Positions 15,942-51,413 of a stretch of DNA of 64,000 nucleotides are shown here, piece after piece (position 1 is the stretch's first letter; each line of letters begins with the position of its first letter). This stretch comes from Epibacterium ulvae (GTDB taxonomy: Bacteria > Pseudomonadota > Alphaproteobacteria > Rhodobacterales > Rhodobacteraceae). The notes below the pieces were generated by a model that saw only the letters and a program-made list of their open reading frames with translations, did no database searches and had not been told where the DNA came from. The translations under genes were made by a program, and so were the position numbers. The DNA is taken from the NCBI RefSeq assembly GCF_900102795.1, contig NZ_FMWG01000001.1, positions 372,001 through 436,000 of the forward strand, in the 5' to 3' direction.

Positions 15942-16037
15942 CGCAACCGCAGCGCCGCACAGCGGCGCTGCCCGGCCCAAGGCGTGGTCGGGTGCGGACC
16001 TTTGGGCCGTGCACGGGGCAAGGGGCGGGAGAGCCCC
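15942..16037 (+). repeat. dispersed three-hairpin element, copy A
   Basis: This copy lies between the DUF484 and transaldolase genes. It has CGCAACC, hairpin 1 (AGCGCCGC-aca-GCGGCGCT, 15951-15969), linker GCCCAAGG (15975-15982), a middle segment that can fold on itself (GGCCCAAGG against CCTTTGGGCC), and hairpin 3 with GGGGC-GGGAGA-GCCCC at 16022-16037. It shares linkers and order with copies at 26120, 26213, 40801 and 51321. The linker differs by one base from the GCCCAACG of the others. Confidence 0.7.
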
Positions 16038-16062
16038 CTGTTCTGGTGGCATAAGACGCAAA

Positions 16063-16093
16063 GCGCCCGACCTTTATCGGAAAGACCGGGCGC
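16063..16093 (-). terminator. intrinsic terminator downstream of transaldolase
   Basis: Read on the minus strand, GCGCCCG...CGGGCGC (7 bp) with an inner CTTT/AAAG helix is followed by TTTGCGTCTT. It starts 25 bases after the transaldolase stop. Confidence 0.6.
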
Positions 16094-16117
16094 AGTAGAT
16101 GTCTTTTCAGAAGCGCG

Positions 16118-16771
16118 TTACAGAATTTTGATATCTGCGGCTTTGATGTCTTTCAAAAACGCATCCAGACCCTTGTCTGTTAGCGGGTGGTTGACCATCG
16201 CTTTGATCACAGCAGGCGGAGCGGTGATCACGTCGGCACCAATGCGGGCAGAGTCCAGAATATGGTTCACGGATCGAATAGACGCGGCAAGGATTTCAGT
16301 TTCAAAATGGTAGTTGTCATAGACGGTGCGAATGTCTTCGATCAGCTCCATTCCATCTAGGTTGATATCATCCAGACGGCCAATGAAAGGTGAGATAAAG
16401 GTCGCGCCTGCCTTGGCGGCCAAAAGCGCCTGATTGGCTGAGAAACACAGGGTCACGTTTACTTTGTGGCCGTCATCGCTGAGGGTTTTACAGGCTTTCA
16501 GACCATCCCAGGTCAGCGGCACTTTGACGGTGATGTTTTCTGCGATCTCCAGCAGTTTGCGCCCTTCTGCAATCATTGTTTCGGCGTCTACGGCAGTCAC
16601 TTCGGCAGAGACGGGGCCTGCGACGAGATCACAGATTTCTTTGGTCACTTCGATAATGTCGCGGCCGGATTTTTTAATCAGCGAGGGGTTGGTGGTTACA
16701 CCATCCACCATCCCCAGATCATTCAGTTCGGCGATTGCATCGATTTCAGCGGTGTCTACGAAAAATTTCAT
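16118..16771 (-). CDS. tal: transaldolase / fructose-6-phosphate aldolase family (TalC type)
   Basis: A 217-residue short-form transaldolase. The catalytic Schiff-base lysine is Lys83 in [11 protein letters not shown], and the family signature GVTTNPSLI is at 24-32. The C-terminal segment [16 protein letters not shown] is typical. This subfamily transfers dihydroxyacetone units in the pentose phosphate pathway, and some members are fructose-6-phosphate aldolases; sequence alone does not separate these. ATG 16771 is supported by the family N-terminus [10 protein letters not shown]. It is divergent from priA with a 124-bp gap. Confidence 0.92.
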
Positions 16772-16895
16772 TGCGCAGGGTCCTTGTCATGGCTTGGCCT
16801 TGGTTGGTCTTGCCTTTACCTGATAGATCGCAATGCTGGAACCCAAAACAGCGCAGGATGCCTTTTGAGGGGCGTGTAAACCGGCAGGAGAGATC

Positions 16896-19091
16896 GTGGA
16901 CGAACCTGAGTTTTTTCAGCAAGGGGAACGCCTTGGCGTTTTAACCACACAGCCGCTGGACCGGGTTCTGGACTACCGCGCGCCCGAAGGGGGCTGTTTT
17001 CGTGGAGCTTTTGTGGAGGTGCCATTGGGACCGCGCAAGGTGCTTGGCGTGGTTTGGGGGCATGGTGCGGGTGATTTTGATTCGTCCAAACTGCGCGCCG
17101 TCATCCGGGTTTTGGATGTGGCCCCCATGCGCGATGAAATGCGCGCCTTTTTGACCAAGGCTGCAGATTATACGCTGACGCCATTGCCTGCGATGCTGCG
17201 TCTTGCGACCCGTGCGCCGGGTCTGTCGGATCCGCCCTCTATGCGCAAGGTGCTGCGCCCCAGTGATGGCGTACCAGATCGGATGACCGATGCGCGCCAG
17301 CGGGTTTTGGCGGTGACAGAGGAATTTGGTGGATTGTCCTTTACCCCAAAAGAGCTGGCGGACCTTGCTGGGGTCACGCCTTCGGTGGTGAAGGGGCTGG
17401 TGAAACAGGGGGCACTGCGCGAAGAGGATGCGCCGCGCGACCTGCCGTTTCCGCCGTTAAATCCTGATTTGCCCGGCAAAGCGCTGACTGTGGATCAGGC
17501 GGCGGCGGCCTCTGCGTTGAATGCTGGCGTGGTGTCGGGGCGGTACGGCACCACATTGCTGAAAGGTGTAACCGGGTCCGGCAAAACCGAAGTTTATCTG
17601 GAAGCGGTTGCAAGCGCTTTGCGTCAGGGGCGGCAGGCCTTGGTTTTATTGCCGGAAATTGCGCTGACGGCCGAGTTTTTGAAACGTGTCAAAGCGCGCT
17701 TTGGCGCGACGCCTGCGGAATGGCATTCGGGCGTCACAATGACAGAACGCCGCCGCGTATGGAAAATGATCGGGCAGGGCAAGGCGCAGTTGGTGATTGG
17801 GGCGCGATCTGCGCTGTTTTTGCCTTATCGTGATCTCGGCTTGATCATTGTCGATGAAGAGCATGACACTTCATACAAACAAGACGATGGGGTGAGCTAT
17901 AATGCACGTGATATGGCCGTCTTGCGGGCGGCGATGTGTTCTGCGCAGGTGGTGCTGGCCTCAGCCACGCCCAGTCTGGAAACCTGGGCAAATGCAGACA
18001 GTGGGAAATACAAACGTCTGGACCTGACCGCGCGGTTTGGGACTTCTGTGCTGCCTGAAATGCGCGCGATTGATATGCGCGATGAAGAGCTTTTGCCCTC
18101 CACATGGATTTCACCAACCTTAAAGCAGGCGATGAAGCTGCGGCTTGAACGCGGGGAGCAATCGTTGTTGTTCCTCAATCGGCGGGGCTTTGCGCCGCTT
18201 ACGATCTGCCGGGCCTGTGGTGCACAGGTGGCCTGCGACAATTGTGACGCACGTATGGTGGAACACCGTTTTATGAAGCGTCTGATGTGTCATCAGTGCG
18301 GAGAGACCAAGCCGATCCCCGACGCGTGCCCGTCTTGCAAGGTTGAGGGGAAAATGGCCCCTGTTGGGCCAGGCATTGAACGGCTTGGTGAAGAGGCGGC
18401 CGCCCTGTTTCCCGAGGCGCGGATTGCGGTGTTGAGCTCTGACCTGTTTGGATCTGCACGGGCATTGAAACAACGGATTGAAGAAATTGCAGCCGGAGAG
18501 GCCGATATTATCCTTGGCACACAGTTGGTGGCAAAGGGGCATAACTTTCCACTGCTCACGCTGGTGGGCGTGATTGATGCAGACCTTGGCCTGCAGGGGT
18601 CTGACCTGCGCGCGGGTGAACGCACGTTTCAATTGATGCGGCAAGTGTCTGGCCGGGCCGGGCGCGCAGAGCGCCCTGGCGAGGCCCTGTTGCAGAGCTT
18701 TCAGCCAGATCACCCCGTGATCCGGGCGATTTTGTCGGGGGATGAAGAAGAATACTGGCGCACAGAAGCGGAACAGCGCCGTATTGCGGGCGTGCCCCCC
18801 TATGGACGAATGGCGGGGATCATCCTGTCGGGCACCGATCTGGCGCAGGTCTTTGATCTGGGTAATGCTTTGGCGCGCGCGGCTGCTCCGCTGCAGCAGG
18901 TGGGGGCGATGCTTTATGGCCCGGCACCTGCGCCTATTGCGCGGGTGCGCGGCAGGCATCGGGTGCGGATGTTGATCAAGGCAGAAAAAACCGTGCCGTT
19001 GCAGGACGCGATTGCCCGCTGGATCGCACCGTTTCGGATGAAAGGAGACCTGCGGTTGAGCGTGGATATTGATCCGCAGAATTTCTTCTGA
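16896..19091 (+). CDS. priA: primosomal protein N' (PriA helicase)
   Basis: A 731-residue superfamily 2 helicase that restarts collapsed replication forks. Walker A is GVTGSGKT at 224-231 and the Walker B is IIVDEEH (DEEH near residue 325). A zinc-binding module with eight cysteines in CxxC pairs lies near 435-485 (CRACGAQVACDNC, CHQCGE, CPSC). The helicase C motifs ILGTQLVAKGHNFP and QVSGRAGR follow. The N-terminal 3'-DNA-binding domain is present. GTG 16896 has AGGAG ten bases upstream. It is followed by a bidirectional terminator shared with the convergent carbonic anhydrase gene. Confidence 0.96.
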   Translation: MDEPEFFQQGERLGVLTTQPLDRVLDYRAPEGGCFRGAFVEVPLGPRKVLGVVWGHGAGDFDSSKLRAVIRVLDVAPMRDEMRAFLTKAADYTLTPLPAMLRLATRAPGLSDPPSMRKVLRPSDGVPDRMTDARQRVLAVTEEFGGLSFTPKELADLAGVTPSVVKGLVKQGALREEDAPRDLPFPPLNPDLPGKALTVDQAAAASALNAGVVSGRYGTTLLKGVTGSGKTEVYLEAVASALRQGRQALVLLPEIALTAEFLKRVKARFGATPAEWHSGVTMTERRRVWKMIGQGKAQLVIGARSALFLPYRDLGLIIVDEEHDTSYKQDDGVSYNARDMAVLRAAMCSAQVVLASATPSLETWANADSGKYKRLDLTARFGTSVLPEMRAIDMRDEELLPSTWISPTLKQAMKLRLERGEQSLLFLNRRGFAPLTICRACGAQVACDNCDARMVEHRFMKRLMCHQCGETKPIPDACPSCKVEGKMAPVGPGIERLGEEAAALFPEARIAVLSSDLFGSARALKQRIEEIAAGEADIILGTQLVAKGHNFPLLTLVGVIDADLGLQGSDLRAGERTFQLMRQVSGRAGRAERPGEALLQSFQPDHPVIRAILSGDEEEYWRTEAEQRRIAGVPPYGRMAGIILSGTDLAQVFDLGNALARAAAPLQQVGAMLYGPAPAPIARVRGRHRVRMLIKAEKTVPLQDAIARWIAPFRMKGDLRLSVDIDPQNFF

Positions 19092-19160
19092 TTTTCCATA
19101 AGATGGATACTCAAGCGCGGTTTTGGGGAGCGGTTATTGTCTGAAAATGCTTAGATTGAA

Positions 19161-19198
19161 AAAAACGGGCAGAACGCTTTTCACTCTGCCCGACTTTT
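19161..19198. terminator. bidirectional intrinsic terminator (priA / carbonic anhydrase)
   Basis: The stem CGGGCAGA/TCTGCCCG (19166-19173 and 19185-19192) is preceded by a run of A and followed by a T-rich stretch, between two convergent genes. It should work on both strands. Confidence 0.75.
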
Positions 19199-19208
19199 CT
19201 AAAGAAGA

Positions 19209-20057
19209 TCAGTGAATCGGAGACAATAGATTCGGGTTCAAAACCAAGTTGCGAACGCCATGTGCATGGTCTTCTTCAAATGGATTGTCAGCCATCCAAG
19301 CTTCCACTGAGTGAATGTCGAGCTTGACCACGTTGGGGCGCACACTCCAGGTTACCTGAAAGGGGGAGCCTTTCTCGTTGTAGCTGGGGCCAGTGGTTGA
19401 TCCGGCATAGACAACGGGTGTGCCCAGATCGGTGGGTAGATTGGGCACTTGATTGAGCCCATCGATTTCTTCGATATGCGCCATCTTTGTGAAATCGGTG
19501 CCGCTGCCATTCACCAGAACTGCGACGACTGTTTCAACGCGCAGCTGTGGGTTTCCGATGGCATCGCTTAGGCACGTGCCGAGGCTTGGTCCAAGAGTCG
19601 CTTGTGCTGTTGAATGTACAAAGTGGATCTCGATTGTATCACCCGGAACTAAATCGCCATGATCACTTTGCCCAATTTTATGGTCGAGCGGCGCTAGTTC
19701 TGCGGCTGTAAGTTCTCCGTCGTACTTAAAGCCGGTACCGAAACCATGACCATCTCCGTTTCCTGCGTAGGTGGTAAATTCTCCGCCCTTGTGTTCGGCG
19801 TTTTCATGAAAATGTATGTCACAAAGGGTCATTTGCGTCAGGAGTGGTGCAGTTGAGAAAACACGATTATTTGCACCTGTATTCGCATCAATATCCCGAG
19901 GGGATTGCGGGCCAAAGCCTTTGCCATCAGTTGTCGCCGCAAGTTTTGAACGTTGCTCGTCTATGACGTTATCTGGTACTGAATGGGCAGTTGTTTCGGC
20001 TAAAGCTAAGGTTCCGAGCATCGCAGTTGATGCACTGACTAACAGAAATTTATTCAT
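19209..20057 (-). CDS. delta-class carbonic anhydrase-like secreted protein
   Basis: A 282-residue exported protein matching the delta carbonic anhydrase family (CA_like, first known from marine diatoms and present in some marine bacteria). A signal peptide covers about residues 1-20 (ending in LALA). The zinc-ligand region reads LCDIHFHENAEHKGGEF (about 80-96), with the two close histidines and the third after the AE pair. GTGFKYDGELTAAEL and the C-terminal EDHAHGVRNLV block are also typical. It would catalyse CO2 hydration in the periplasm. ATG 20057 is chosen because it gives a clean signal peptide after GAAAG; a TTG eight codons upstream is less likely. Composition is more AT-rich than that of neighbours, which hints at transfer. 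Confidence 0.82.
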   Translation of the reverse strand: MNKFLLVSASTAMLGTLALAETTAHSVPDNVIDEQRSKLAATTDGKGFGPQSPRDIDANTGANNRVFSTAPLLTQMTLCDIHFHENAEHKGGEFTTYAGNGDGHGFGTGFKYDGELTAAELAPLDHKIGQSDHGDLVPGDTIEIHFVHSTAQATLGPSLGTCLSDAIGNPQLRVETVVAVLVNGSGTDFTKMAHIEEIDGLNQVPNLPTDLGTPVVYAGSTTGPSYNEKGSPFQVTWSVRPNVVKLDIHSVEAWMADNPFEEDHAHGVRNLVLNPNLLSPIH

Positions 20058-20285
20058 TCCATGTCTTTCTATATTTGCCAATTTTAAGACTATTGATGCA
20101 TAATAAATGCCCCTATTCTTTTTGACCGTCTAGCCCATGCCTTTCAAAAATTTACCGGTTTTGAGAACTATCGAGGCACCCAAGATGGGAATAGAGCGTT
20201 CAACCTGTATTTTTGCAGCTGTGCTGTGCGCCTTTAGTACAATTCTTTTCTCGCCATGATTGTCAAACAGGCGTAGATCAGAGGC

Positions 20286-21521
20286 ATGTTTGATCGTGTC
20301 TCCCTGTCCGACCTTGATGCGCAGCCAAAATGGCGGCGGCCCATTGTTTTATTGTTCCTGATGGCTTTGACGATGCCGATTGCGTTTAACGCATGGCTGG
20401 CCTTGCTTAATAACTTTGTCATTGAGGTTGCGCAGTTTGATGGGGCAGACATTGGCCTGCTGCACACGGTGCGTGAAATTCCGGGATTTCTGGCCATTGG
20501 GGTGATCGCGGTCATTCTTGTGGTGCGCGAGCAGGTTTTGGCGATGATTTCGCTGATGATGCTGGGGGCCGCCACGGCGGTGACGGCGTGGTTCCCGCAG
20601 ATGGGCGGGATTTTGATGATCACGCTGCTCAGTTCGATCGGGTTTCATTATTATGAAACGGTGAACCAGTCGTTGCAGTTGCAGTGGCTGGATAAAAAAC
20701 GCGCGCCGCAGGTGCTGGGCTGGCTGGTGGCCGCCGGATCTGCTGCAACTTTGGTGGTTTATCTGGGGATTGAACGCCTGTGGAAGCCCTTAGAGCTAAG
20801 CTATGATGTAATCTATATGGCGGCGGGTGGCACGACCTTGGTTGTGGCATTGCTCTGCCTGTTGCTGTTTCCACAGTTTGAAGCACCGACGCCGCAAACC
20901 AAAAAGCTGATCCTGCGCCGTCGCTATTGGCTGTATTATGCCTTGCAGTTCATGGCGGGCGCGCGGCGGCAGATCTTTGTTGTGTTCGCCGGTTTCATGA
21001 TGGTCGAAAAATTCGGCTTTGAAGTGCATGAGCTAACGCGGCTTTATCTGATCAATCTGATTATCAATATGACCGTTGCACCGATGTTGGGAAAAGCCGT
21101 TGCGCATTTCGGAGAGCGGCGCACCCTTATGGTGGAATATGCTGGGTTGGTGATTGTGTTTGCCGCTTATGGCGGGGTCTACTGGTTTGGCTGGGGGCTG
21201 ATGGTTGCCGCGTTTTTATATGTGGTGGATCATATCTTCTTTGCGCTGGCGCTTGCTTTGAAAACCTATTTTCAAAAGATTGCAGATCCTGCGGATATTG
21301 CGCCTACGGCGGCGGTGGCCTTTACCATCAACCATATCGCGGCGGTGGCTTTGCCTGTTCCCTTGGGGCTGTTGTGGCTTGCGTCACCCGGGGCAGTGTT
21401 TGGACTGGCTGCGCTGATGGCAATGGTGTCTTTTGGCTTTTCGTTGCTGATCCCACGTCACCCGGAACCTGGATATGAGACGGTGCTGACGCGGCGCGCT
21501 GTGGCACAGGCTGCAGAATAG
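20286..21521 (+). CDS. MFS transporter
   Basis: A 411-residue membrane protein with about twelve hydrophobic helices in two halves and a cytoplasmic loop around residue 205-220 (PTPQTKKLILRRRYW), a major facilitator superfamily layout. No motif identifies the substrate or the subfamily. The ATG at 20286 has the weak upstream sequence AGAGGC. The gene stands alone: divergent from the carbonic anhydrase gene and 80 bp before prmA on the same strand. A functional tie to the carbonic anhydrase is possible only by position. Confidence 0.8.
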   Translation: MFDRVSLSDLDAQPKWRRPIVLLFLMALTMPIAFNAWLALLNNFVIEVAQFDGADIGLLHTVREIPGFLAIGVIAVILVVREQVLAMISLMMLGAATAVTAWFPQMGGILMITLLSSIGFHYYETVNQSLQLQWLDKKRAPQVLGWLVAAGSAATLVVYLGIERLWKPLELSYDVIYMAAGGTTLVVALLCLLLFPQFEAPTPQTKKLILRRRYWLYYALQFMAGARRQIFVVFAGFMMVEKFGFEVHELTRLYLINLIINMTVAPMLGKAVAHFGERRTLMVEYAGLVIVFAAYGGVYWFGWGLMVAAFLYVVDHIFFALALALKTYFQKIADPADIAPTAAVAFTINHIAAVALPVPLGLLWLASPGAVFGLAALMAMVSFGFSLLIPRHPEPGYETVLTRRAVAQAAE

Positions 21522-21601
21522 CGCGGCACGTTTCATTGTGGGGGCTTGACCTTGTGCGACGTGCGGCCTAGGCGCGAGGCAACAGTTTCAGGAGAGACGT
21601 G

Positions 21602-22468
21602 ATGCCGACCTATACCGCCTTGACCACTCTGACCGGGAAAACCGCCGCCGAAGCGCTGGGCGAAGCGATGGAGCGGCTTCAGCCTGAACCGACCGGTGTA
21701 GGTGTCTTTGAAGTCGAAGATGGATCCGGACTGTGGGAAGTGGGGGGGTATTTTACGGAAACCCCGGATGAGGCAGGTCTGGCACTGTTGGCAACGATGC
21801 ATGAAGCCAAGCCTTTTGCGGTATCTGAACTGCCAGAAACCGATTGGGTGGCACATGTGCGCCGCGAGTTGGCACCGGTGGAAGCAGGGCGTTTCTTTGT
21901 CTTTGGTAGCCATGACGCGGACAAACTGCCCGAGGGCAAAATTCCACTGCTGATCGAGGCTGCAATGGCCTTTGGCACCGGACACCACGGCACCACGTTG
22001 GGCTGCCTGCTCGCGCTGGATCATCTGCTGGATGAAGGGTTTGCGGGTGAGAAAGTGGCGGATATTGGCTGCGGCACGGCGGTGCTGGCGATGGCTGCGG
22101 CACGGGTCTGGGATGGTACCATTGTGGCCAGCGATATTGATCAGGTGGCAGTTGATGTGGCTGAAGCCAATCTGAAAGCAAATGATATGGAAGGCGCGGT
22201 TGCCTGTGTAGAGGCTGCTGGTTTTGACCATGAAATGCTGCAGACTTGCGCACCGTTTGATTTGATCTTTGCAAATATCCTGAAAGGCCCTCTGGTTGCT
22301 CTTTCCCCGGATATGGCTGCGAACCTACGCGCGGGAGGCTATGCGATTCTTTCGGGGATTCTGAACGAGCAGGCCGATGAAGTTGTCGAGGTTTATGCAC
22401 AAAATGGCATCAATCTTGTCGAAAAGAACCAGATTGGTGAGTGGACGACGCTGCTTTTGCGCAAATAA
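21602..22468 (+). CDS. prmA: ribosomal protein L11 methyltransferase
   Basis: A 288-residue SAM-dependent methyltransferase that trimethylates ribosomal protein L11. It has an N-terminal substrate-recognition domain (1-110) and a Rossmann methyltransferase domain with AFGTGHHGTT (about 124-133), the SAM loop VADIGCGTAVLAMAA and the catalytic-region motif FDLIFANIL. ATG 21602 is preceded by GGAGAG; the overlapping GTG at 21599 is less likely. Length fits the shorter alphaproteobacterial form. Confidence 0.9.
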   Translation: MPTYTALTTLTGKTAAEALGEAMERLQPEPTGVGVFEVEDGSGLWEVGGYFTETPDEAGLALLATMHEAKPFAVSELPETDWVAHVRRELAPVEAGRFFVFGSHDADKLPEGKIPLLIEAAMAFGTGHHGTTLGCLLALDHLLDEGFAGEKVADIGCGTAVLAMAAARVWDGTIVASDIDQVAVDVAEANLKANDMEGAVACVEAAGFDHEMLQTCAPFDLIFANILKGPLVALSPDMAANLRAGGYAILSGILNEQADEVVEVYAQNGINLVEKNQIGEWTTLLLRK

Positions 22469-22929: not shown

Positions 22930-22965
22930 GACCGGCATACCTTTGGGGAGAGGTGTGGCTCAACA

Positions 22966-25797: not shown

Positions 25798-25811
25798 CTT
25801 TTGAGGTATTT

Positions 25812-26117
25812 ATGTCTGAACTGAAAGAGCTGTCGGATCTTTCGCAACAGGTTTCAGATTTGTATGCCGCGCGGTTTGGAATTGAGCGCGATGCGACCTG
25901 GCATTTGGCAAAGTTGACGGAAGAACTGGGCGAGCTGCAAGCGGCCTATCTGAAGATGGCTGGACAGGGGCGGACGACGTCTTGCCCAGCTGATCTGCGG
26001 CGCGCGATGGAAGATGAGGTGGCTGATATGTTTGCGCAGTTGCTGCTTTTTGCAGATTGGCAGGAGATCGATTTGAAAGAGGCGCTAAGGCGGAAATGGG
26101 CGCCATATCTTAAATAA
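25812..26117 (+). CDS. MazG-like pyrophosphohydrolase
   Basis: A 101-residue all-alpha protein of the MazG/dUTPase-like NTP pyrophosphohydrolase type. The metal-binding pattern EExxE...ExxxD is visible as KLTEELGELQAAYL (about 34-47) and MEDEVADMFAQLL (about 69-81). Such proteins hydrolyse nucleoside triphosphates or related compounds to monophosphate and pyrophosphate; the substrate is not evident. It starts 15 bp after ruvB. The inverted repeat pair (copies B' and B) follows its stop directly. Confidence 0.8.
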   Translation: MSELKELSDLSQQVSDLYAARFGIERDATWHLAKLTEELGELQAAYLKMAGQGRTTSCPADLRRAMEDEVADMFAQLLLFADWQEIDLKEALRRKWAPYLK

Positions 26118-26119: not shown

Positions 26120-26198
26120 GACGGTGGTACTCCCGCCCGTCGTTGATCATTTGAACAATGACCATCTCCCGTTGGGCGTGGCACTGCTGGCGCAGTGC
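26120..26198 (-). repeat. dispersed three-hairpin element, copy B' (inverted)
   Basis: In minus orientation: hairpin 1 GCACTGC-gcca-GCAGTGC (26181-26198), linker GCCCAACG (26170-26177), hairpin 2 TGGTCATT/AATGATCA (26144-26164) and hairpin 3 GACGG/CCGTC with GGGCGGGAG in the loop (26120-26141). It begins three bases after the MazG-like stop. It forms a head-to-head pair with copy B, 14 bases away. Confidence 0.75.
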
Positions 26199-26212: not shown

Positions 26213-26299
26213 GCGCAACCGCGCCGCGCAAGCGGCGCTTGGCCCAACGCTGATGTGTCGCCCGGCGACAGCCGGGCGGCCAGAAGGGGCGGGAGCCCC
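26213..26299 (+). repeat. dispersed three-hairpin element, copy B
   Basis: GCGCAACC, hairpin 1 GCGCCGC-gcaa-GCGGCGC (26221-26238), linker GCCCAACG (26242-26249), hairpin 2 CGCCCGGC-gaca-GCCGGGCG (26259-26278) and hairpin 3 GGGGC-ggga-GCCCC (26286-26299). It is the clearest copy: all three stems are perfect. It lies in front of the gene at 26390 and is open in that gene's frame by chance. Confidence 0.8.
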
Positions 26300-39894: not shown

Positions 39895-40794
39895 ATGGCA
39901 GCAAATATTATCGACGGGAAGGCGTTTGCCGCAAAAGTCCGGGAACAGATCAAAGGTCACGTTGACCGGCTGAAAGAAGAGCACAACATTACCCCCGGTC
40001 TGGCGGTTGTGTTGGTTGGGGAAGACCCAGCATCAGAGGTTTATGTCGCAGCCAAGCACAAGCAGACGGTTGAGTCGGGCATGGCCTCTTTCGAACATAA
40101 ACTGCCTGCAGATACCTCCGAGGAAGATCTTTTTGCACTGATTGACACGTTGAATGCAGACCCGAATGTGCATGGAATCCTCTGCCAGTTCCCCGTGCCT
40201 GATCATTTGGATGAGCGCCGAGTTGTTGCCCGTATCGACCCAACGAAGGATGTTGATGGGTTGAGCGTTGTGAATGCGGGGTTGCTGGCAAGTGGTGAAA
40301 AGGGGCTTGTGTCCTGTACTCCGCTGGGTTGTTTGATGCTACTGCGTGATCAGATCGAGAATATGTCTGGCAAGAACGCAGTGGTGATTGGTCGTTCAAA
40401 CCTGTTTGGCAAACCTATGGGACAGCTGCTGTTGCAGCAAAATTGCACAGTGACGATTGCCCATTCTCGCACGCAGGATCTGGCCGACGTTTGCCGTCGT
40501 GCCGATATTCTTGTTGCTGCTGTGGGCCGGGCAGAAATGGTCAAAGGTGACTGGGTGAAACCTGGTGCCACTGTGATTGATGTGGGCATCACACGTATTC
40601 CGCATCCAGATAAGCCAGGTAAAACAAAGCTTCTGGGCGATGTTGACTTTGCCGAAGCCTCCGAGGTTGCAGGTGCCATCACCCCCGTTCCTGGTGGAGT
40701 CGGACCGATGACCATCGCCTGCCTGTTGGCCAATACTGTTACTGCGTGCTGTCGTGCCAATAACCTGTCCGAGCCCGAAGGCCTGACCGTTTAA
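39895..40794 (+). CDS. folD: bifunctional methylene-THF dehydrogenase / methenyl-THF cyclohydrolase
   Basis: A 299-residue enzyme interconverting 5,10-methylene-, methenyl- and 10-formyl-THF with NADP. The catalytic lysine region is [13 protein letters not shown] (about 47-59); the NADP-binding loop is [17 protein letters not shown]; the C-terminal signature is [17 protein letters not shown] 39895 has AAAGGA eight bases upstream; ATG 39886 is an alternative. It works directly with the Fhs encoded upstream. Confidence 0.95.
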
Positions 40795-40800: not shown

Positions 40801-40886
40801 GCGCAACCGCGCCGCATGCAAATGCGGCGCTACGCCCAACGGGACGCGATTTGTTTGAAAACAAATTAAGGGCGGGCGGGAGCCCT
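40801..40886 (+). repeat. dispersed three-hairpin element, copy C
   Basis: GCGCAACC, hairpin 1 GCGCCGCAT-gcaa-ATGCGGCGC (40809-40830), linker GCCCAACG (40834-40841), hairpin 2 ATTTGTT/AACAAAT (40849-40866) and hairpin 3 AGGGC-gggcggga-GCCCT (40869-40886). It begins six bases after the folD stop and precedes a separate intrinsic terminator, so it probably forms part of the folD transcript 3' end. Confidence 0.8.
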
Positions 40887-40916: not shown

Positions 40917-40948
40917 AAAAACCCACCGGTGGTATGCCGGTGGGTTTT
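40917..40948. terminator. bidirectional intrinsic terminator (folD / icd)
   Basis: AAAACCCACCGG pairs perfectly with CCGGTGGGTTTT around a seven-base-pair-free loop (TGGTATG region). A run of A on one side and T on the other suit termination on both strands. Confidence 0.85.
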
Positions 40949-41001: not shown

Positions 41002-43215
41002 TCAGTCGATGATTGCGTTCAGCGTTGCTGATGGGCGCATCACTTTTGCTTTCAATTCAACGCTGGGGCGGTAGTAGCCGCCAATATCAGCCGCTGGGCC
41101 TTGTGCTGCTGCCAGCTCTGCCAAGATCGTGGCTTCACCCTCTGCCAAAGATTTTGCGATCGGGGCAAAATGCGCCGCCAGGTCAGCATCCCCACTCTGT
41201 GCCGCAAGCGCTTCTGCCCAGTAGCGCGCAAACCAATAGTGGCTATCACGGTTGTCAGGTTCACCTACCTTGCGGGACGGAGATTTATTGTTGTCCAGAA
41301 TGCCTTGTGTGGCCACTTCGGCTGCTGCGCCCAGCACGCCTGCTTTGGCGTTGCCTTTCACATCGGCAAGGAAGTTAAGCGATTCACCCAATGCGCAGAA
41401 TTCACCCATGGAATCCCAGCGAAGGTGGTTTTGCTCGACCAGCTGCTGCACATGTTTGGGCGCAGAGCCGCCAGCACCCGTTTCAAACAGACCACCACCC
41501 TGCATCAATTTCACGATCGACAGCATTTTCGCCGATGTGCCCAGTTCCAGAATGGGGAAGAGATCGGTCAGGTAATCGCGCAGCACGTTGCCGGTGATGG
41601 CAATGCTGTCGTTGCCAGCAGTGATGGTTTTCAGCGACTGTGCTGTTGCTTCACGTGGGGCCAGGATTTGGAACAGATCTGCCTTACCTGCCGCTTCAAG
41701 CGCAGGGGTTACGTATTTGATCAGCTCTGCATCATGGGCGCGGTTTGCGTCCAGCCAGAAAATTGCCTCAGAACCGGTCAGACGCTGACGGTCCATTGCC
41801 AGCTCAATCCAGTTTTCAATTGGCGCTTTCTTCACTGTGCAGGCGCGCCAGATGTCACCCGCGTCCACATCGTGCGCATGCAGCGTTTCGCCATTTGTCA
41901 GAACTACGCGAATGGTGCCGTCTGCAGGCGCTTCAAATGTGGTGGGATGCGAGCCGTATTCTTCGGCCTTTTGCGCCATCAGGCCAACGTTTGCAACAGA
42001 GCCTGCAGTGGTCACATCCAGAGCACCATTGGCTTTGAAGAAATTGATGGTTTCATCATAGACGGTTGCATAGCAACGATCGGGGATCACGCAGTTGGTG
42101 TCGCCTTTCTTGCCTTCGCCGTCCCAGCCTTTGCCACCCGCGCGGATGACCGCTGGCATAGAGGCGTCGATGATCACATCAGAAGGCACATGCAGGTTGG
42201 TGATGCCTTTGTCGCTGTCGACCATATACATCGCAGGGCGTTCTGCAGTGACGGCATCAATTGCGGCCATGATATCAGCGTTGTCTTTGACGCGGTCCAG
42301 CAGGTCACCCACGCCAGAATTCGGGTTTACGCCCAGAGCGGCCATGTCGTCGCCGAATTTTTCAAACACAGGCGCCAACCATGCTTTGACAGCGTGGCCA
42401 AAGATGATTGGGTCAGAAACCTTCATCATCGTGGCTTTCATGTGCAAGGAGAACATGGTGCCGTCTGCTTTGGTGTCTTCAATTGCGCCACTCAGGAATG
42501 CGCCCAAGGCTTTTGCGGACATAAAGGTTGCATCTGCGATGGTGCCTTCTGCGAGCGGCCATGCGTCTTTCAGAACGGTTACAGCCCCGTCTTTGGCGAC
42601 AAATTCGATTTTCGCATCACCAGCCTGTGCAGCAGTAATGGTGGCGGCTTTCTCATTTGCATAGAAATCATTGCCGGGCATCGAGGAGACTTTGGTTTTG
42701 CTGTCCGCAGCCCACGCGCCCATGGAATGTGGATTTGCTTGCGCGTAGTTTTTCACTGCGCGGGCGGAGCGACGGTCAGAGTTGCCTTCGCGCAGAACCG
42801 GGTTCACCGCAGAGCCTTTGATCGCATCATATCGCGCGCGAACAGCCTTTTCGTCGTCTGTTTTTGGCTCTTCTGGGTAGGCGGGCAAGGCATAGCCTTG
42901 GCTTTGTAACTCTTCGATGGCGGCGACCAATTGTGGCACAGAGGCCGAGATGTTTGGCAGCTTGATTACATTGGCGTCAGGTGTTTTTACCAATTCGCCC
43001 AGCTCTGCCAGATCATCTGACTGGCGTTGATCTTCGGTCAACGCCTCAGGAAATGCGGAAATGATTCGGGCGGCAAGGGAAATGTCTTTGGTGCCAACAC
43101 TGACGCCTGCGGCGCTGGCAAAGGAGCGAATGATTGGCAAGAAAGAGGCTGATGCCAATTCTGGCGCTTCGTCTACAATGGTATACAGAATGTCTGGGTT
43201 TGAGTTTTCTGTCAT
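41002..43215 (-). CDS. icd: NADP-dependent isocitrate dehydrogenase, monomeric
   Basis: A 737-residue monomeric isocitrate dehydrogenase (type II), producing 2-oxoglutarate, CO2 and NADPH in the TCA cycle. Family blocks include [18 protein letters not shown] at the start, [11 protein letters not shown] (about 130), PNPHS-type [10 protein letters not shown] and [14 protein letters not shown] near the C-terminus. Length agrees with the roughly 740-residue monomeric enzymes. ATG 43215 fits the family; an upstream frame translates leader sequence. Its opposite strand has long open frames that are shadows. Convergent with folD through a shared terminator. Confidence 0.96.
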
Positions 43216-44945: not shown

Positions 44946-44959
44946 ATAGGCTAGGCGAA

Positions 44960-45472: not shown

Positions 45473-45687
45473 GTGCCTGTTCACTCTTATTGGTGTTTTG
45501 ATTCTGCTCTTTTGCGAAACCTTAGCGCAAATTGCCAGCCTTGCCATCCGGGAACCTTCTCAGTTCTCTGCACTGCTGCTGACTTGCACAAAAGCTGTGC
45601 TCAAAACGACTTGGGTTCTTGTGCCCGCTTGCGTCCTCGTTCACGATGCCATGGAAGGTTGAGACTGCAAAGCGGAGGGGGGCGCAG

Positions 45688-46674
45688 ATGCCAAGAGAAC
45701 GTCTGAGTGTTGTTGTAACGCGACGGTTGCCGGAACCTGTGGAAACCCGGTTGTGCGAATTGTTTGACGTCAAACTGCGCGATGAGGATCGCCCTATGTC
45801 GCGCTCTGAACTGGCGCAGGCTTTGCAAGAGGCGGATGTCTTGGTTCCGACCGTGACCGATACAATAGATGCCGCCCTGTTGGGGCAAGCTGGTGAACAG
45901 CTGAAACTTATCGCCAATTATGGCGCAGGCGTTGATCACATTGACGTCGCCACCGCGCGCGAGCGTGGCGTATTGGTTTCAAACACACCAGGTGTGCTGA
46001 CAGATGACACGGCTGATATGGCTATGGCCTTGATCATGGCGGTTGTTCGTCGGGTGCCCGAAGGGCTTGCCATGATGCAAAAAGGAGAATGGGAAGGCTG
46101 GGCCCCAACCGCACTGATGGGCGGGCGCCTTGCTGGGCGCCGTATTGGGATTCTCGGCATGGGTGGTATTGGTCAGGCTGTGGCGCGTCGCGCGGCAGCT
46201 TTTGGGATGCAAGTTCACTATCACAATCGACGTCGTTTGCATGCTGAAGCTGAAAAGCAGCTTGAGGCCACCTATTGGGAAAGTCTTGATCAGATGGTGG
46301 CTCGTATGGATGTGATTTCCGTCAATTGCCCGTCTACACCTTCGACATTTCATTTGATGAACGCACGCCGCTTGAAGCTGATGAAACCGGATGCGGTGCT
46401 GGTCAATACTTCACGTGGGGAAGTGGTGGATGAAAACGCGCTGACGCGTATGCTGCGTGCAGGTGAAATCGCTGGGGCCGGGCTGGATGTTTATGAGAAT
46501 GGCAGCGCGGTGAACCCACGCTTGCGTGAATTGTCTAATGTCGTCCTTTTGCCGCATATGGGCTCGGCCACCGTGGAGGGGCGGATTGAGATGGGCGAGA
46601 AAGTTTTGTTAAATATCAAAACGTTTGAAGATGGACATCGGCCACCAGATCAGGTGGTACCATCAATGCTGTAG
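45688..46674 (+). CDS. D-isomer-specific 2-hydroxyacid dehydrogenase
   Basis: A 328-residue NAD(P)-dependent dehydrogenase. The nucleotide-binding motif is GILGMGGIGQAVARRA (about 153-168); the catalytic Arg is in VNTSRGEVVDE, Glu in GLDVYENG and His in LLPHMGSATVE. The closest functional guess is glyoxylate/hydroxypyruvate reductase-like (GRHPR type), relevant for serine-cycle or glycine-derived carbon, but the substrate cannot be read from the sequence. ATG 45688 follows GGAGGGG. ggt follows 35 bases after the stop. Confidence 0.88.
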   Translation: MPRERLSVVVTRRLPEPVETRLCELFDVKLRDEDRPMSRSELAQALQEADVLVPTVTDTIDAALLGQAGEQLKLIANYGAGVDHIDVATARERGVLVSNTPGVLTDDTADMAMALIMAVVRRVPEGLAMMQKGEWEGWAPTALMGGRLAGRRIGILGMGGIGQAVARRAAAFGMQVHYHNRRRLHAEAEKQLEATYWESLDQMVARMDVISVNCPSTPSTFHLMNARRLKLMKPDAVLVNTSRGEVVDENALTRMLRAGEIAGAGLDVYENGSAVNPRLRELSNVVLLPHMGSATVEGRIEMGEKVLLNIKTFEDGHRPPDQVVPSML

Positions 46675-46709
46675 GCTGAATTTACGGCCGGAAAAAAGGA
46701 GTGTATTTC

Positions 46710-48506
46710 ATGAAAGTTATAGTTTCGGCAGGGGTGTCCTGTGCATTGCTTGTGGGTGCAGCTTATGCCCAAGAGGCAGCAGATGCGGTTGCGCCGGAAG
46801 AGGCCACTCAAGGAGAAGCGCAGGCTTTGACTGAGGCTGCATTATTTGCACAAGCCAAGAAGGCGGCTGGCAAAGTTGTTGAATCCACAGATTGGATGAT
46901 CGCTGCTGCCAACCCGCTTGCAGTTGAAGCCGGGGCAGCTGTGCTTGACGCTGGTGGAACCGCAGCGGATGCGATGGTGGCGGTACAGACTGTACTGGGC
47001 CTCGTCGAGCCGCAATCTTCGGGTCTGGGCGGCGGCGCCTTTCTTGTTTGGTACGACGCTGAAGCGGGAGAGCTGACCACGCTTGATGCGCGCGAAACTG
47101 CACCTTTGGCTGCGACGCCGTCTCTATTTCAGGATGAAGCAGGCGAACCTTTGAAGTTCTTTGATGCTGTTGTGGGTGGTCTTTCGGTGGGAACACCGGG
47201 AACGCCAGCTTTGCTGGAAGAGGCGCACCGCCGCTGGGGGCGTGCCAATTGGGGATCCTTGTTTGAGGCAGGGATCACGCTTGCCGATAAAGGGTTTGCG
47301 GTTTCCCCGCGCATGGCGCAATCGATCGCCCGCGATGCAGACCGGTTGAGCCGGTTCCCCGAAACAGCAGCTTATTTTGTGCCAAATGGTGCGCCTTTGG
47401 CTGAGGGGCAAATCGTGCAAAACAAAGCTTATGCAAATGTGTTGCGTGCATTGGCGGCAGAAGGTGCAGATGCGTTTTATACCGGTGCAATCGCTGCGGA
47501 CATCGTGAAAACAGTTCAGACCGCTGAGGGCAATCCGGGTGTTCTGTCTGAAACCGATCTGGCGCTTTATACAGTTAAGGAACGTCCAGCCGTTTGTGCG
47601 ACCTACCGCGCGTATGAAGCCTGCGGCATGGGGCCGCCATCCTCGGGTGCGCTTACAGTGGGTCAGATTCTCGGTCTGCTGGGGCAATATGATCTGGCTG
47701 CCCTTGGTGCCGAGAAACCCGAAAGCTGGCGTTTGATCGGGGATGCGTCGCGCCTCGCCTTTGCGGATCGGGGGCGTTACATGGCGGATAGTGATTTTGT
47801 GCCAATGCCAACGCAGGGCCTGGTGGATAATAGCTATCTGGCTGAGCGTGCGAAACTGCTAGCGAGCGAAACCGCGCTTGAGAGTGCAGATCCCGGCACC
47901 CCAGTCTTTGATCATGCAGGGCTTGCACCACGCTGGGCGGATGATCAATCGATTGAGTTTCCATCAACATCACATATTTCAATTGTAGACCAATACGGCA
48001 ACGTCTTGTCGATGACGACCACCATCGAAAACGGATTTGGCTCGCGCCTGATGACAAATGGTTTCTTGCTGAACAATGAGCTGACAGATTTCTCATTCCG
48101 TACGCACAAAGACGGAGTGCCAATCGCAAATCGTCTGGAACCCGGCAAGCGCCCGCGCTCTTCGATGGCGCCGACGATCGTGATGCAAGATGGTAAGCCC
48201 GTGTTGGCGATTGGTTCACCTGGTGGCAGTCGCATCATTGGATATGTTGCCAAAACCATCATCGCTTGGGCGGATTGGGGTATGACGGTGCAAGAAGCGA
48301 TTGAGCTGCCGCATCTTGTGAACCGCTTTGGGACATATGATCTGGAAGAGGGCACAAAGGCTACAGATTTTGAGCAGGGCCTGACCGATCTTGGATATGA
48401 GGTTAATGTGCGCGGGCTAAATTCCGGCCTTCATGCAATTGAAATCGGAGAGACGTTGAAAGGTGGTGCAGACCCACGGCGGGAAGGCATCGCAATCGGC
48501 GGATAA
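46710..48506 (+). CDS. ggt: gamma-glutamyltransferase
   Basis: A 598-residue periplasmic Ntn-hydrolase precursor: signal peptide 1-20 (GAAYAQE), then the large and small chains. Autocleavage is expected before the Thr of the TSHISIVD segment (about residue 417), equivalent to the TTHYSVVD of E. coli Ggt. Other conserved blocks are QSSGLGGGAFLVWY, LNNELTDFSF and PGGSRII. It cleaves glutathione and other gamma-glutamyl compounds. ATG 46710 has AAGGAG nine bases upstream. A terminator follows. Confidence 0.94.
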   Translation: MKVIVSAGVSCALLVGAAYAQEAADAVAPEEATQGEAQALTEAALFAQAKKAAGKVVESTDWMIAAANPLAVEAGAAVLDAGGTAADAMVAVQTVLGLVEPQSSGLGGGAFLVWYDAEAGELTTLDARETAPLAATPSLFQDEAGEPLKFFDAVVGGLSVGTPGTPALLEEAHRRWGRANWGSLFEAGITLADKGFAVSPRMAQSIARDADRLSRFPETAAYFVPNGAPLAEGQIVQNKAYANVLRALAAEGADAFYTGAIAADIVKTVQTAEGNPGVLSETDLALYTVKERPAVCATYRAYEACGMGPPSSGALTVGQILGLLGQYDLAALGAEKPESWRLIGDASRLAFADRGRYMADSDFVPMPTQGLVDNSYLAERAKLLASETALESADPGTPVFDHAGLAPRWADDQSIEFPSTSHISIVDQYGNVLSMTTTIENGFGSRLMTNGFLLNNELTDFSFRTHKDGVPIANRLEPGKRPRSSMAPTIVMQDGKPVLAIGSPGGSRIIGYVAKTIIAWADWGMTVQEAIELPHLVNRFGTYDLEEGTKATDFEQGLTDLGYEVNVRGLNSGLHAIEIGETLKGGADPRREGIAIGG

Positions 48507-48559
48507 TTTCCGCAAATATCAGAGCCACCTTAGTTTTCCTAAGGTGACTGCCAAATAGA

Positions 48560-48600
48560 GACACCGGCGTCAGATATTTAAGGCGTCGGTGTCTTTTATT
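48560..48600 (+). terminator. intrinsic terminator after ggt
   Basis: GACACCGGCG (48560-48569) pairs over ten positions (one G-U) with CGTCGGTGTC (48584-48593), followed by TTTTATT. Confidence 0.85.
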
Positions 48601-48707
48601 TTGTGGATGTTTTGAGGTGTGACAATTATTTGCGCAGAGCGCCGTGGGCGTCGGTTTTGTCGTTTTTTAGGTCGGATGGATTTCGCGGATAGTCCCGTAT
48701 TTTTGCC

Positions 48708-48713
48708 TATACT
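48708..48713 (+). promoter_or_regulatory. possible -10 element before the GcvT-domain dehydrogenase
   Basis: TATACT matches the -10 consensus closely, 16 bases before the first possible start codon. No convincing -35 is placed at 17 +/- 1 bases upstream, so the assignment is weak. Confidence 0.3.
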
Positions 48714-48729
48714 ACGCTAGGATTCTTTA

Positions 48730-51261
48730 ATGGACGTGGAGCGCGGCAATATGAAAACTGAAGTCAAAGCGCTGGTTGTGGGTGGCGGTGCCATCGGTGC
48801 CTCGATTGCGTATCATCTGGCAAAAGCGGGCTGGGATGATGTGATGCTGATCGAACGCGATGAGTTGACCTCAGGCTCTACATGGCATGCGGCGGGCCTG
48901 CTGCCCCTGTTCAATATGTCTTATGCGACGACGCATATTCATAAATACTCGGTTGATTTCTATAAAACGCTTGAAGCGGAAACGGGTCTGAACGCTGGTT
49001 TTGCGGTTGTTGGCAATCTGCGCATGGCGCAGACACAAGAGCGTATGGATGAATATATGCTGTATGCGTCCACTGCGGAAACATGTGGTGTGAACTATGA
49101 ATGGCTTACCCCGGATCAGATCAAAGAGCGCTGGCCTTTGATCAAGACTGAGGATCTGAAAGGCGCGATCTATCACACCGAGGATGGTTATATTAATCCA
49201 GCTGATGTGACGCAGGCGATGGCCAAAGGCGCACGCCAGCGCGGTGTTGATATCGTGCGCAAACTTCAGGCGGACGCTTTCCATTGGACTGGTAGCCATT
49301 GGGAAGTGACTTGCACCAAGATGATTGAAAAAGGCGGCAATCTTGTTCCTTCGGAAGAGCAGGTGGTGATTACGGCTGAACATGTGGTGACGGCGTCCGG
49401 CAATCATGCACAGCGCACGGCCAAGATGTTGGGGATTAAAATTCCGGCGGTTCCAGTCGAACACCAGTTTATCGTGACAGATGTAGATCCTGCTCTGCAG
49501 GCCTATCGCGAAGCTGGTAATCCAGAGCATCCGGTTATTCGCGATGCAGATGCGCAGTCGTATGTGCGCGAAGAACGCGGTGGCTGGATTCTGGGGGTCT
49601 ATGAGAAAAACGCACCGGCCTGTTTTGAACATGGCGTGCCTGACAGTTTCCGCGCCGATCTCTTCCCGTTGGATCTGGAGCGGATCGAAGATCAGTATAT
49701 GGCGATGATCCATCGTATGCCGTCATCCGAGGAATGCGGGCTGAAGGACGATTTTAACGGTCCGATTTGCTATACACCCGATGGCAATCCGCTGGTTGGC
49801 CCAGCACCGGGGCTGCGCAATATGTGGCTGGCAGAGGGCTTCTCGTTTGGGATCACGGCGGCGGGTGGCACGGGGTATTATCTGGCCCAGATGATGGTGA
49901 ATGGCGAAGCCGAAATCGATATGGCGAGCCTTGACCCAAAGCGCTATTCCTCAAACTGGATGACAACCGAATTTGCAGCACGCAAAAATGAAGAGTGCTA
50001 CGACCACGTTTATATCCTGCATCACCCGGACGAAGAACGCCCCGCTGCACGCCCGTTGCGCACCTCGCCTGCATATGATCGTCAAAAGGCGCGCGGTGCG
50101 CAATTTGGTTGGGTTAATGGATGGGAGCGTCCAAATTATTACGGCCCTCTTGATGCACCGGCACATTTTGATGAAGAAAGCCGCTCGTTCCGTCGTGGAA
50201 AGTGGTGGCAACACGCTGTTGATGAAGCCAAGGCAATCCGCGAAGGCGTAGGTTTGGTCGATGCAACGGCCTTTACCAAACATGTGGTAAAAGGGCCTGG
50301 TGCGACGCAGTTCCTGGATTGGTTTACCTGCAATAAACTGCCTAAAGTGGGCCGGATTAACCTGACTTACGCACTGACCTCAGCAGGGACAACCCGTACA
50401 GAATATACCATCGTGCGCAATGGCGAGAATTCTTATTACCTTGTCTCTGCTGGCGCATGGACTGAATATGATGCGGATTATCTGCGCAAAGCGGCTGAAG
50501 ATAAGATGGAAGAGTTCGGCTATATTGAAATTCAGGATGTGACCACACAGTGGGGTGTTTTTGCCATCGCAGGCCCCAAAGCGCGGGATGTGTTGAAAGA
50601 AGTGATCGTAGATGCAGATCCTGAGACAGCCTTGTCGAACAAGCGTTTCCCGTGGCTGTCCGCGCGACAGATTGAGCTGGGCATGTGCCCGGTGAATGCG
50701 ATCCGTGTCGCCTATACCGGTGAACTTGGCTGGGAGCTGCACCACCCGATTGAAATGCAGAATTACCTGTTTGATTTGTTAGAAAAGGCAGGCGAGGCGC
50801 ACGGGATGAAGCTGGTCGGTGCTCGGGCACAAAACTGGCTGCGTCAGGAAAAATCCTATCGTGCATTTGGCACGGAACTGGGTCGCGATGCGACGCCGCA
50901 AGAAGCCGATCTGCCGCGCTTTATTGACCTGTCGAAAGAGTTCCATGGCAAAGGTGCTATGGTAGAAACTGGTGTGCGCTTTAAGTGTGTGACAGTTCTG
51001 ATCGATGGGCCAACTGACGCGGATCCATGGGGGCGTGAGGTGCTTTACGCTGAGGATGGTGTCACACGTGTCGGCCGGTTGACGTCAGGTGGTTATTCTG
51101 TCGCCTTCGAGAAATCTATTGGCATGGGATATGTGCGACCTGAGGATGCGATCGAAGGGACAAAGCTCAAAGTAAAGATGCAGGATCAGCTGTGGGATGC
51201 AGTTGTTACCTGTGACAGCCCTTATGATCCGAAAAATGAAACTATTCGCCAAAATGGCTGA
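48730..51261 (+). CDS. GcvT-family FAD dehydrogenase (dimethylglycine/sarcosine dehydrogenase-like)
   Basis: An 843-residue flavoprotein with FAD-dependent DAO domain (about 12-395; dinucleotide loop VVGGGAIGASIAYHLA), an FAO_M linker (about 395-450), an aminomethyltransferase GcvT domain (about 455-735) and the C-terminal GcvT barrel (about 745-835). Such enzymes oxidatively demethylate N-methylated amines (dimethylglycine, sarcosine) and pass the methyl carbon to THF. The segment GSTWHAAGLLP suits covalent or tight FAD binding (His near residue 55). ATG 48730 follows AGGA; ATG 48751 (MKTEVKAL) is as likely. Fhs and FolD, encoded 9-11 kb upstream, could use the carbon produced. The exact substrate is unresolved. 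Confidence 0.88.
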   Translation: MDVERGNMKTEVKALVVGGGAIGASIAYHLAKAGWDDVMLIERDELTSGSTWHAAGLLPLFNMSYATTHIHKYSVDFYKTLEAETGLNAGFAVVGNLRMAQTQERMDEYMLYASTAETCGVNYEWLTPDQIKERWPLIKTEDLKGAIYHTEDGYINPADVTQAMAKGARQRGVDIVRKLQADAFHWTGSHWEVTCTKMIEKGGNLVPSEEQVVITAEHVVTASGNHAQRTAKMLGIKIPAVPVEHQFIVTDVDPALQAYREAGNPEHPVIRDADAQSYVREERGGWILGVYEKNAPACFEHGVPDSFRADLFPLDLERIEDQYMAMIHRMPSSEECGLKDDFNGPICYTPDGNPLVGPAPGLRNMWLAEGFSFGITAAGGTGYYLAQMMVNGEAEIDMASLDPKRYSSNWMTTEFAARKNEECYDHVYILHHPDEERPAARPLRTSPAYDRQKARGAQFGWVNGWERPNYYGPLDAPAHFDEESRSFRRGKWWQHAVDEAKAIREGVGLVDATAFTKHVVKGPGATQFLDWFTCNKLPKVGRINLTYALTSAGTTRTEYTIVRNGENSYYLVSAGAWTEYDADYLRKAAEDKMEEFGYIEIQDVTTQWGVFAIAGPKARDVLKEVIVDADPETALSNKRFPWLSARQIELGMCPVNAIRVAYTGELGWELHHPIEMQNYLFDLLEKAGEAHGMKLVGARAQNWLRQEKSYRAFGTELGRDATPQEADLPRFIDLSKEFHGKGAMVETGVRFKCVTVLIDGPTDADPWGREVLYAEDGVTRVGRLTSGGYSVAFEKSIGMGYVRPEDAIEGTKLKVKMQDQLWDAVVTCDSPYDPKNETIRQNG

Positions 51262-51286
51262 GCAATTCAAATTGAGAGTGTGACCC

Positions 51287-51313
51287 AAACCCCGGCTCAT
51301 AGTCGGGGTTTTT
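51287..51313 (+). terminator. intrinsic terminator after the GcvT-domain gene
   Basis: AAACCCCG / CGGGGTTT (51287-51294 and 51304-51311) with a nine-base loop, followed by more T. Repeat copy D starts eight bases later. Confidence 0.85.
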
Positions 51314-51320
51314 GATATTC

Positions 51321-51413
51321 GGTGTTCTCCCGCCCGTCACCATTCGTATCAGAGATCCGAAAGGTTCCCGTTGGGCTCAGCAGGCCGCGCCTTTGGCGCG
51401 GCCTGCTGAGCCC
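51321..51413 (-). repeat. dispersed three-hairpin element, copy D (inverted)
   Basis: In minus orientation: hairpin 1 is a perfect 19-bp stem around AAA (51373-51413), linker GCCCAACG (51369-51376), hairpin 2 ACC-t-TTCG against CGAA-t-GGT (51339-51365) and hairpin 3 GGTG/CACC with GGGCGGGAG in the loop (51321-51341). It lies between convergent genes, directly beyond the terminator of the GcvT-domain gene. Confidence 0.75.

Follow-up and report, generated by a model that had tools for sequence, protein, structure and literature searches.

A REP/BIME-like gene-end element of Rhodobacteraceae, selected for its structure and probably acting as folded DNA

REP, BIME and REPIN repeats, the GTAG and CGTC super-families among them, are, in the accessible text of their descriptions, short palindromic intergenic units that occur in tens of copies near 3' ends and between convergent genes and form head-to-head dimers, and hypothesised roles include supercoiling, termination and mRNA stability (PMC3733652). 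Such repeats are often viewed as selfish or decaying. Here we analysed an element from a 64,000-nucleotide (nt) stretch of the Epibacterium ulvae genome (contig NZ_FMWG01000001.1, positions 372,001 to 436,000; hereafter the window), in which an earlier note had pointed out five intergenic copies, likened their distribution to that of REP/BIME and placed them in no named family. The element resembles the REP systems in all the respects listed above, but it has two hairpins and a GGCGGGAG tail, fixed boxes and almost freely replaced stems, a richer architecture that is held by selection. Purifying selection acts on the structure of this dispersed gene-end element, which is specific to its lineage; that it is real and selected is close to certain. 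On the best reading it is a REP/BIME-like, structurally selected 3'-boundary element that probably acts as folded DNA. With tens to about 100 copies per genome in named hosts, the role of dispersed gene-end palindromes becomes directly testable.

Being dispersed, intergenic, palindromic and arranged in head-to-head dimers, the element answers to REP/BIME in the wide sense, in agreement with the distribution described earlier. It lacks the GTAG-type foot, which the available portion of PMC6006769 defines as GTAG or GTGG 0-2 nt 5' of the hairpin, and it lacks a RAYT/Y1 transposase gene flanked by the repeats, PF01797 being absent from its own genome and found in 5 of 28 genomes. Nor does it show the CGTC-type plan of one 8-9 bp stem, an unpaired CGTC or variant and a CCA-like tail, as that plan is given in the part of the family description compared. 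The element is thus of the REP/BIME kind but outside every REP family tested. The Rhodobacterales motifs HRC-8-4 and uORFC-8-2 are likewise structured, intergenic and confined to Rhodobacterales, but the accessible text of PMC8632094 describes them as mainly at one locus each (cco operons and cysS), unlike the dispersed element. No Rfam family matched above its gathering threshold in the window, and the 231 bases around two neighbouring copies (B and C, listed below) gave nine sub-threshold matches with E of 0.42 or more. No published description was found in the literature searched, subscription papers and supplements lying outside it. The absence of a family name is thereby borne out, and the element family is unannotated.

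When copies of the own genome are aligned with those of three relatives, a common plan emerges: a first hairpin (P1), 0-4 nt, GCCCAACG or GCCCAAC, a variable second hairpin (P2), GGGC or GGC, GGGAG and a C-rich stretch. Read as 5'-P1-NN-GCCCAAC-P2-GGCGGGAG-3', one strand has two hairpins, the first near-perfect and the second bulged. With the minimum loop of the stem finders fixed at 3, P1 is a GC-rich hairpin of 7-19 bp in 79 of 80 copies and of 5 bp in the remaining one, and a few copies contain mismatches. The GCCC (or GCC) of GCCCAACG pairs with the GGGC (or GGC) at the base of P2 and leaves a bulge of 4 nt there, AACG or, where the outer stem is GCC/GGC, CAAC. The linkers had been described as constant and single-stranded; half of GCCCAACG turns out to be paired, and only the bulge is left unpaired. 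The three separate hairpins described earlier need a similar correction: because the base of the second uses the same GGGC, the third is not independent and is possibly an alternative fold of GGGC with the C-rich tail that competes with the P2 base. The tail is C-rich, with a C fraction of 0.54-0.74 at +1..+5, and the sequence 5' of P1 is mixed, CAACC being frequent there in the own genome. GCCCAAC and GGCGGGAG are the constant boxes; they hardly vary, and stem changes are compensated.

Among 112 aligned copies, 86.1% of pair cells hold standard pairs, against 65.1% after shuffling. The earlier note had read preserved pairing in varying stems as the signature of a selected structure and proposed covariation as its check; by our own covariation counts this holds, with 580 double-change cells against 196 in shuffled data (0 of 500 shuffles as high) and 109-139 in slid controls. 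Because this alignment had been fitted to the structure, we also compared orthologous sites, which keep the boxes and show compensated stem changes. Two genomes of the same genus, G200 and G302, were used. Eighteen G200 copies mapped into ten G302 stretches chosen only by synteny, and both boxes were intact at 16 of these sites, where the flanks, changed at 266 of 2381 aligned positions (11.2%), would lead one to expect about 3 of 18 over the 15 box positions. One imperfect site has a single box letter changed; the other holds an element in the opposite orientation with a changed box. In the other direction, 31 of 37 copies from 20 G302 stretches could be mapped, 30 of them were found in the same orientation and the 31st site also shows the element. 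This direction is favoured by sampling, as the G200 stretches were chosen around copies and copies without a counterpart would fall mostly among the 6 of 37 that did not map, which makes 16/18 the less biased figure than 31/31.

Over the 30 orthologous pairs, with 25 gapped P1 cells and 7 unpaired cells set aside, P1 shows 6 double changes, 5 of them still paired, against 0.32 expected under independence, and P2 shows none against 0.13 expected. Of the single changes, 13 left the pairing in place (G.T versus Watson-Crick) and 5 broke it. The boxes differ at 1 of 450 positions, a figure conditional on a finder that requires boxes.

We searched for further copies with a covariance model (R1) of 73 positions and 25 pairs built from 25 copies, window copies B, C and D among them and A and E left out. 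In the window, all five sequences pointed out earlier are present and were recovered at E<=0.0045, the next match having E=0.42. Of 1987 candidates in the own genome (3.99 Mb) 150 were scored, and 43 of these matched at E<=0.05; many more copies were found in relatives, so that the earlier proposal to look beyond the window met with a clear answer; adding copy A gives the own-genome set of 44. The exact pattern GCCCAACG-N10..35-GGGCGGGAG occurs 20 times in the own genome and 0 times when read backwards. Every one of 13 genomes from the genus, counting the own, carries this pattern, at 5-59 copies per genome, and none of 8 from other families of the class does. A looser pattern finds 102 and 98 copies in G200 and G302, against 1 and 2 for the backward control. 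Across the order, with up to 12 candidates scored per genome, R1 matches at E<=0.001 came from 77 of the 390 genomes, representing 25 of the 139 genera and all labelled as a single family (f1). Among the named matches listed, mostly Rhodobacteraceae, are Phaeobacter, Leisingera, Ruegeria, Tritonibacter, Tropicibacter, Pseudophaeobacter, Tropicimonas, Gemmobacter and others.

A chance origin was rejected on the backward pattern (0 versus 20), the window E-values and the covariation above shuffles. The pattern scan of named records returned at least 116 loci, on 80 of which R1 was run; pattern matches in Bradyrhizobium (L115) and Roseospirillum (L153) were not confirmed by R1 at E<=0.01 and appear to be due to chance. 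Carriage by phages was likewise dropped: 78 viral contigs fit the pattern, and since none fits R1 at E<=0.05 these matches look like chance. A record labelled Nocardioides marinus (JAHVJD010000003.1; L165, L166) has the pattern in two stretches, and its label or assembly may be wrong.

The window copies and the genes beside them are as follows.

15123..15842, minus strand: DUF484 gene, on the P1 side of copy A
15952..16031, plus strand: copy A, with P1 at 15952-15968, a GCCCAAGG box, P2 and GGGCGGGAG ending at 16031; weakest copy (E=0.0045, 25.5 bits)
16032..16038, plus strand: C-rich tail of copy A (AGCCCCC), judged from its letters a candidate partner of GGGC in the alternative third hairpin
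16118..16771, minus strand: transaldolase-family gene (PF00923), its stop faced by the tail of copy A
25812..26117, plus strand: MazG-like gene (below the Pfam cut-off), its stop facing the tail of copy B
26130..26198, minus strand: copy B, with P1 at 26181-26198 and the core GCCCAACG..GGGCGGGAG at 26130-26177
26221..26295, plus strand: copy C, with P1 at 26221-26238 and the core at 26242-26295; head-to-head partner of B
39895..40794, plus strand: folD-type gene (PF00763/PF02882), upstream of copy D
40809..40882, plus strand: copy D, with P1 at 40809-40830 and the core at 40834-40882, between the convergent folD and monomeric isocitrate dehydrogenase genes
41002..43215, minus strand: monomeric isocitrate dehydrogenase gene (PF03971), convergent to folD
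51327..51409, minus strand: copy E, with P1 at 51377-51409 (perfect 15-bp stem, 19 bp counting GCCC) and the core at 51327-51376, between convergent genes

Copy A had been singled out as the weakest, and its score and GCCCAAGG box agree. It had also been noticed that copies begin soon after stop codons. This is true of copy D, whose P1 starts 14 nt 3' of the folD stop, but the end usually close to a stop is the 3' tail, which faces the end of the opposing gene: the tail-to-stop distances are 12 nt for B, 65 for E, 86 for A and 119 for D, and the tail of C faces a start. Ordinary hairpins flanked by both A- and T-runs stand at about 40917-40947 and 51287-51313, between the tails of D and E and the facing genes; in the one beside E the T-run is longer on the plus strand. 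Genes of the folD type number two per genome in G200, G302 and G265 and one in the other 27 genomes searched.

Several of these sites recur elsewhere. In each of the four g30 genomes searched, the transaldolase gene is immediately followed by a copy in sense whose P1 and P2 carry compensated changes. A C-like copy stands in the ruvB gap of the own genome and of four others of the genus and, by reading, in that of G200, G302 and G117 as well; in G117 a B-like copy stands beside it, at B's place and in B's orientation. Other genera thus have the element at the same site and in the same orientation with replaced stems, both at the transaldolase gene and, in G117, in the B/C gap. A further copy with the orientation of D is seen in the folD gap of G003 alone; it lies beside the opposing gene, almost 400 nt away from folD.

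With genes called by a simple Markov script of our own rather than taken from an annotation, 49 of 80 copies from four genomes (four window copies included, not A) lie between convergent genes, 19 have the tail towards a stop and P1 towards a start, 10 the reverse and 2 are divergent, with none in called genes. The 44 own-genome copies divide into 25 convergent, 13 tail-to-stop and P1-to-start, 6 reverse (four of them in head-to-head pairs) and 0 divergent, and a stop lies on the tail side of 38, at 8-35 nt in 28 of these. For G200 we placed 99 copies in 60 stretches (1.19 Mb), of which 58 were chosen around copies, which inflates absolute rates; gaps of at least 110 nt held copies in 50 of 100 convergent, 32 of 257 tandem and 3 of 142 divergent cases, and 0 of the 99 copies were inside called genes. 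Its 75 lone copies comprise 43 convergent, 16 sense tandem, 13 antisense tandem and 3 divergent ones. Where a lone copy is convergent, the end nearer a stop is the tail in 33 cases and P1 in 9 (medians 24 versus 102 nt). Close pairs in G200 are head to head in 12 of 12 cases, four of them having one P1 in common, and the own genome has six head-to-head pairs, as expected from the REP/BIME-like layout noted earlier; one tail-to-tail pair, 228 nt apart, was seen in G007. A pair with a single P1 at L289:1472-1605 reads GTTGGGC-NNN-P1-NNN-GCCCAAC. The single-P1 pairs of G200:C1 lie near 694511, 1760189, 3436692 and 3868965, and three of the four have the same overlap of 27 nt.

The element is polar, and its mismatches tell which strand folds. 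Across 232 copies G.T outnumbers A.C by 82 to 15 (P1 23:8, P2 59:7), although the stem finder treats the two alike, and the GCCCAAC strand is therefore the folded one. A folded RNA from the reverse complement, the gene-sense strand past the stop codon, was dropped for this asymmetry. The P1 loops are asymmetric as well, with 94 copies of G..A type versus 16 of the complementary T..C type. A mutation bias, through deamination on one of the strands, could strengthen the first of these asymmetries, G.T over A.C, but not the second, that of the loops. By class, the P1 loops of the 232 copies are GNA in 45, GNYA in 36, TTT in 17, GNRA in 11 and UNCG in 0. Terminator-like hairpins at the same loci (n=379) have GNRA in 12, TTT in 6, UNCG in 3, GNA in 2 and GNYA in 2; those in G200 3' untranslated regions (UTRs; n=191) have UNCG in 12, GNRA in 9, GNYA in 1 and GNA in 0; and the 24 from the own genome have none of the UNCG, GNRA, GNYA and GNA classes. 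GNA and GNNA loops on G-C stems are described, in the accessible parts of the sources, as extraordinarily stable DNA mini-hairpins (PMC4686876), and the GAA loop in DNA is treated in PMC9828363. The P1 loops resemble such stable DNA hairpins rather than RNA ones, which favours folded DNA.

The reading we put first, tentatively, is a folded DNA with a putative binding protein. The working form would be the GCCCAAC strand folded as DNA, exposed when transcription or replication unwinds the gap. A protein would bind this folded strand through the invariant bulge and the GGCGGGAG tail, and the bound element would serve as a polar boundary, keeping run-through or collision at gene ends in check, a role similar to those in supercoiling and termination hypothesised for REPs. 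It may have originated as a mobile REP-like unit and since been held in place by function. A stronger version would make it a polar chromosome-boundary element of a new class, in which strong purifying selection keeps a single folded DNA strand at many convergent ends in Rhodobacteraceae, with a hairpin-binding protein dedicated to reading it and an orientation set relative to replication; we consider this rather doubtful.

Several observations weigh against the DNA reading. Sites turn over: among the other genomes of the genus searched, G003 alone matches A and none matches B. The P2 loops are more mixed than those of P1 (G..A 74, T..C 29), and GCAA, of the RNA type GNRA, is the most frequent of their G..A tetraloops (12). 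Stable G..A loops are known in RNA too. G.T pairs are about equally frequent in P2 (3.7%) and in terminator hairpins (4.4%), the latter also having the same excess of G.T over A.C (85:25), so the G.T measure does not separate DNA from RNA. A reader protein was not found. Lastly, in G200, the one genome for which replication orientation was assigned (origin and terminus from GC skew), just 24 of the 75 lone copies (p=0.0024), and 13 of the 43 convergent ones (p=0.014), have the leading-strand sequence in their folded strand; the folded strand is thus under-represented in the lagging-strand template, in which it would be exposed by replication.

Some of these points would suit an RNA 3'-end element, the main alternative though a somewhat unlikely one, in which RNA with the P1-to-tail sequence folds within the 3' UTR, there causing or protecting the transcript end and sparing the opposing gene antisense transcription, perhaps as a terminator with GGGC-GGGA-GCCC as its third hairpin. 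The upstream gene is in sense in 59 of 80 copies from the four genomes and 59 of 75 lone G200 copies, the G.T asymmetry is expected of RNA too and GCAA is among the P2 loops. Copy C and its counterparts lie just before an apparent promoter (by eye) of the next operon, and a T-run motif stands in the same gap in other genera. Orientation in tandem gaps, however, does not suit a terminator of the upstream gene, with 16 sense to 13 antisense among lone G200 copies and 6 to 13 in the own genome. Canonical terminators are found in 12 of 49 convergent gaps with the element versus 20 of 45 without (p=0.051), but tandem gaps with it are not poorer in them (12/31 versus 72/219, p=0.55), and in both comparisons the masked length differs.

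Bidirectional intrinsic terminators also lie between converging genes and have GC-rich hairpins, and the C-rich tail and the T-runs of some copies add to the likeness; in the own genome T is raised at +6..+15. Unlike them, the element has no general U-tract and has invariant boxes, DNA-type P1 loops and strand polarity. Measured against the definition of a stable hairpin with an immediate U-tract, it does not qualify, although individual copies carry C-run and T-run tails. T-rich hexamers past the tail are no more frequent than in a control stretch in two sets (18/33 versus 18/33 and 10/52 versus 11/52) and are in modest excess in a third (25/101 versus 16/101). The P1 loops have no UNCG and disfavour GNRA, unlike G200 terminators, and an ordinary hairpin flanked by both A- and T-runs stands about 35 nt past copy D.

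A second alternative, which we regard as unlikely, is a REP-like selfish single-stranded DNA element moved in trans by a nuclease or transposase, gene ends being harmless places of insertion. It would account for the intergenic, 3'-end and head-to-head layout, which is that of REPs in the accessible text of PMC3733652, and for DNA-type P1 loops. Copies are also absent at matching sites in most genomes of the genus, and in the own genome the head-to-head pairs of L014 and L015 match at 92% and 86% identity despite unlike spacer and flanks. Retention with compensated changes at fixed sites speaks against it, as does the depletion from the lagging-strand template. No recent amplification was seen, the best identity to a copy of the same genome having a median of 0.73-0.79. 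With 103 of the 112 inserts of the four genomes parsed, the excess of P2 similarity within over between genomes was not significant in three genomes (130/500); recent amplification into species-specific subfamilies was rejected, as within-genome similarity was not raised in the three compared. The Y1 transposase of 5 of the 28 genomes, not including the own, has no element at E<=0.1 in nine loci around its genes. Nor is there a transposase among the 14 most recurrent neighbour protein clusters, one member of each identified; these are ordinary (ABC ATPase, LysR, SDR, EamA, epimerase, AsnC, aminotransferases and others).

In integron attC sites, GTTRRRY is the partner box of RYYYAAC. GCCCAAC fits the latter, which the available text of PMC8632094 gives as a distinguishing feature of attC, and the single-strand fold and variable stem are similar as well. 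An attC-like recombination site is nevertheless extremely improbable: the AAC is bulged, there is no GTTRRRY partner and the right end is GGCGGGAG, and copies are dispersed rather than in arrays. None of 20 element-bearing genomes exceeded the curated cut-off for integron integrase (TIGR02249), and sub-threshold integrase matches occur in 20 of 20 such genomes and likewise in 14 of 14 controls.

Gene ends also carry a second repeated motif, which reads approximately GCCTCCGGCGGGAG-TATTTTTGGAAAGATGAAG, follows a hairpin in several cases and has the GGCGGGAG tail in common with the element. The patterns used find it 0 times in the window, and the literature searched held no mention of its GGCGGGAGTATTTTT. 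Its sites, as positions on the strand read, are:

L390:19764, plus strand: second motif
L423:9604, minus strand: second motif
L301:2464, plus strand: second motif
L310:2460, minus strand: second motif
L180:1371, plus strand: second motif

In the ruvB gap this motif stands where other genera have the element, and G200 and G302 carry both.

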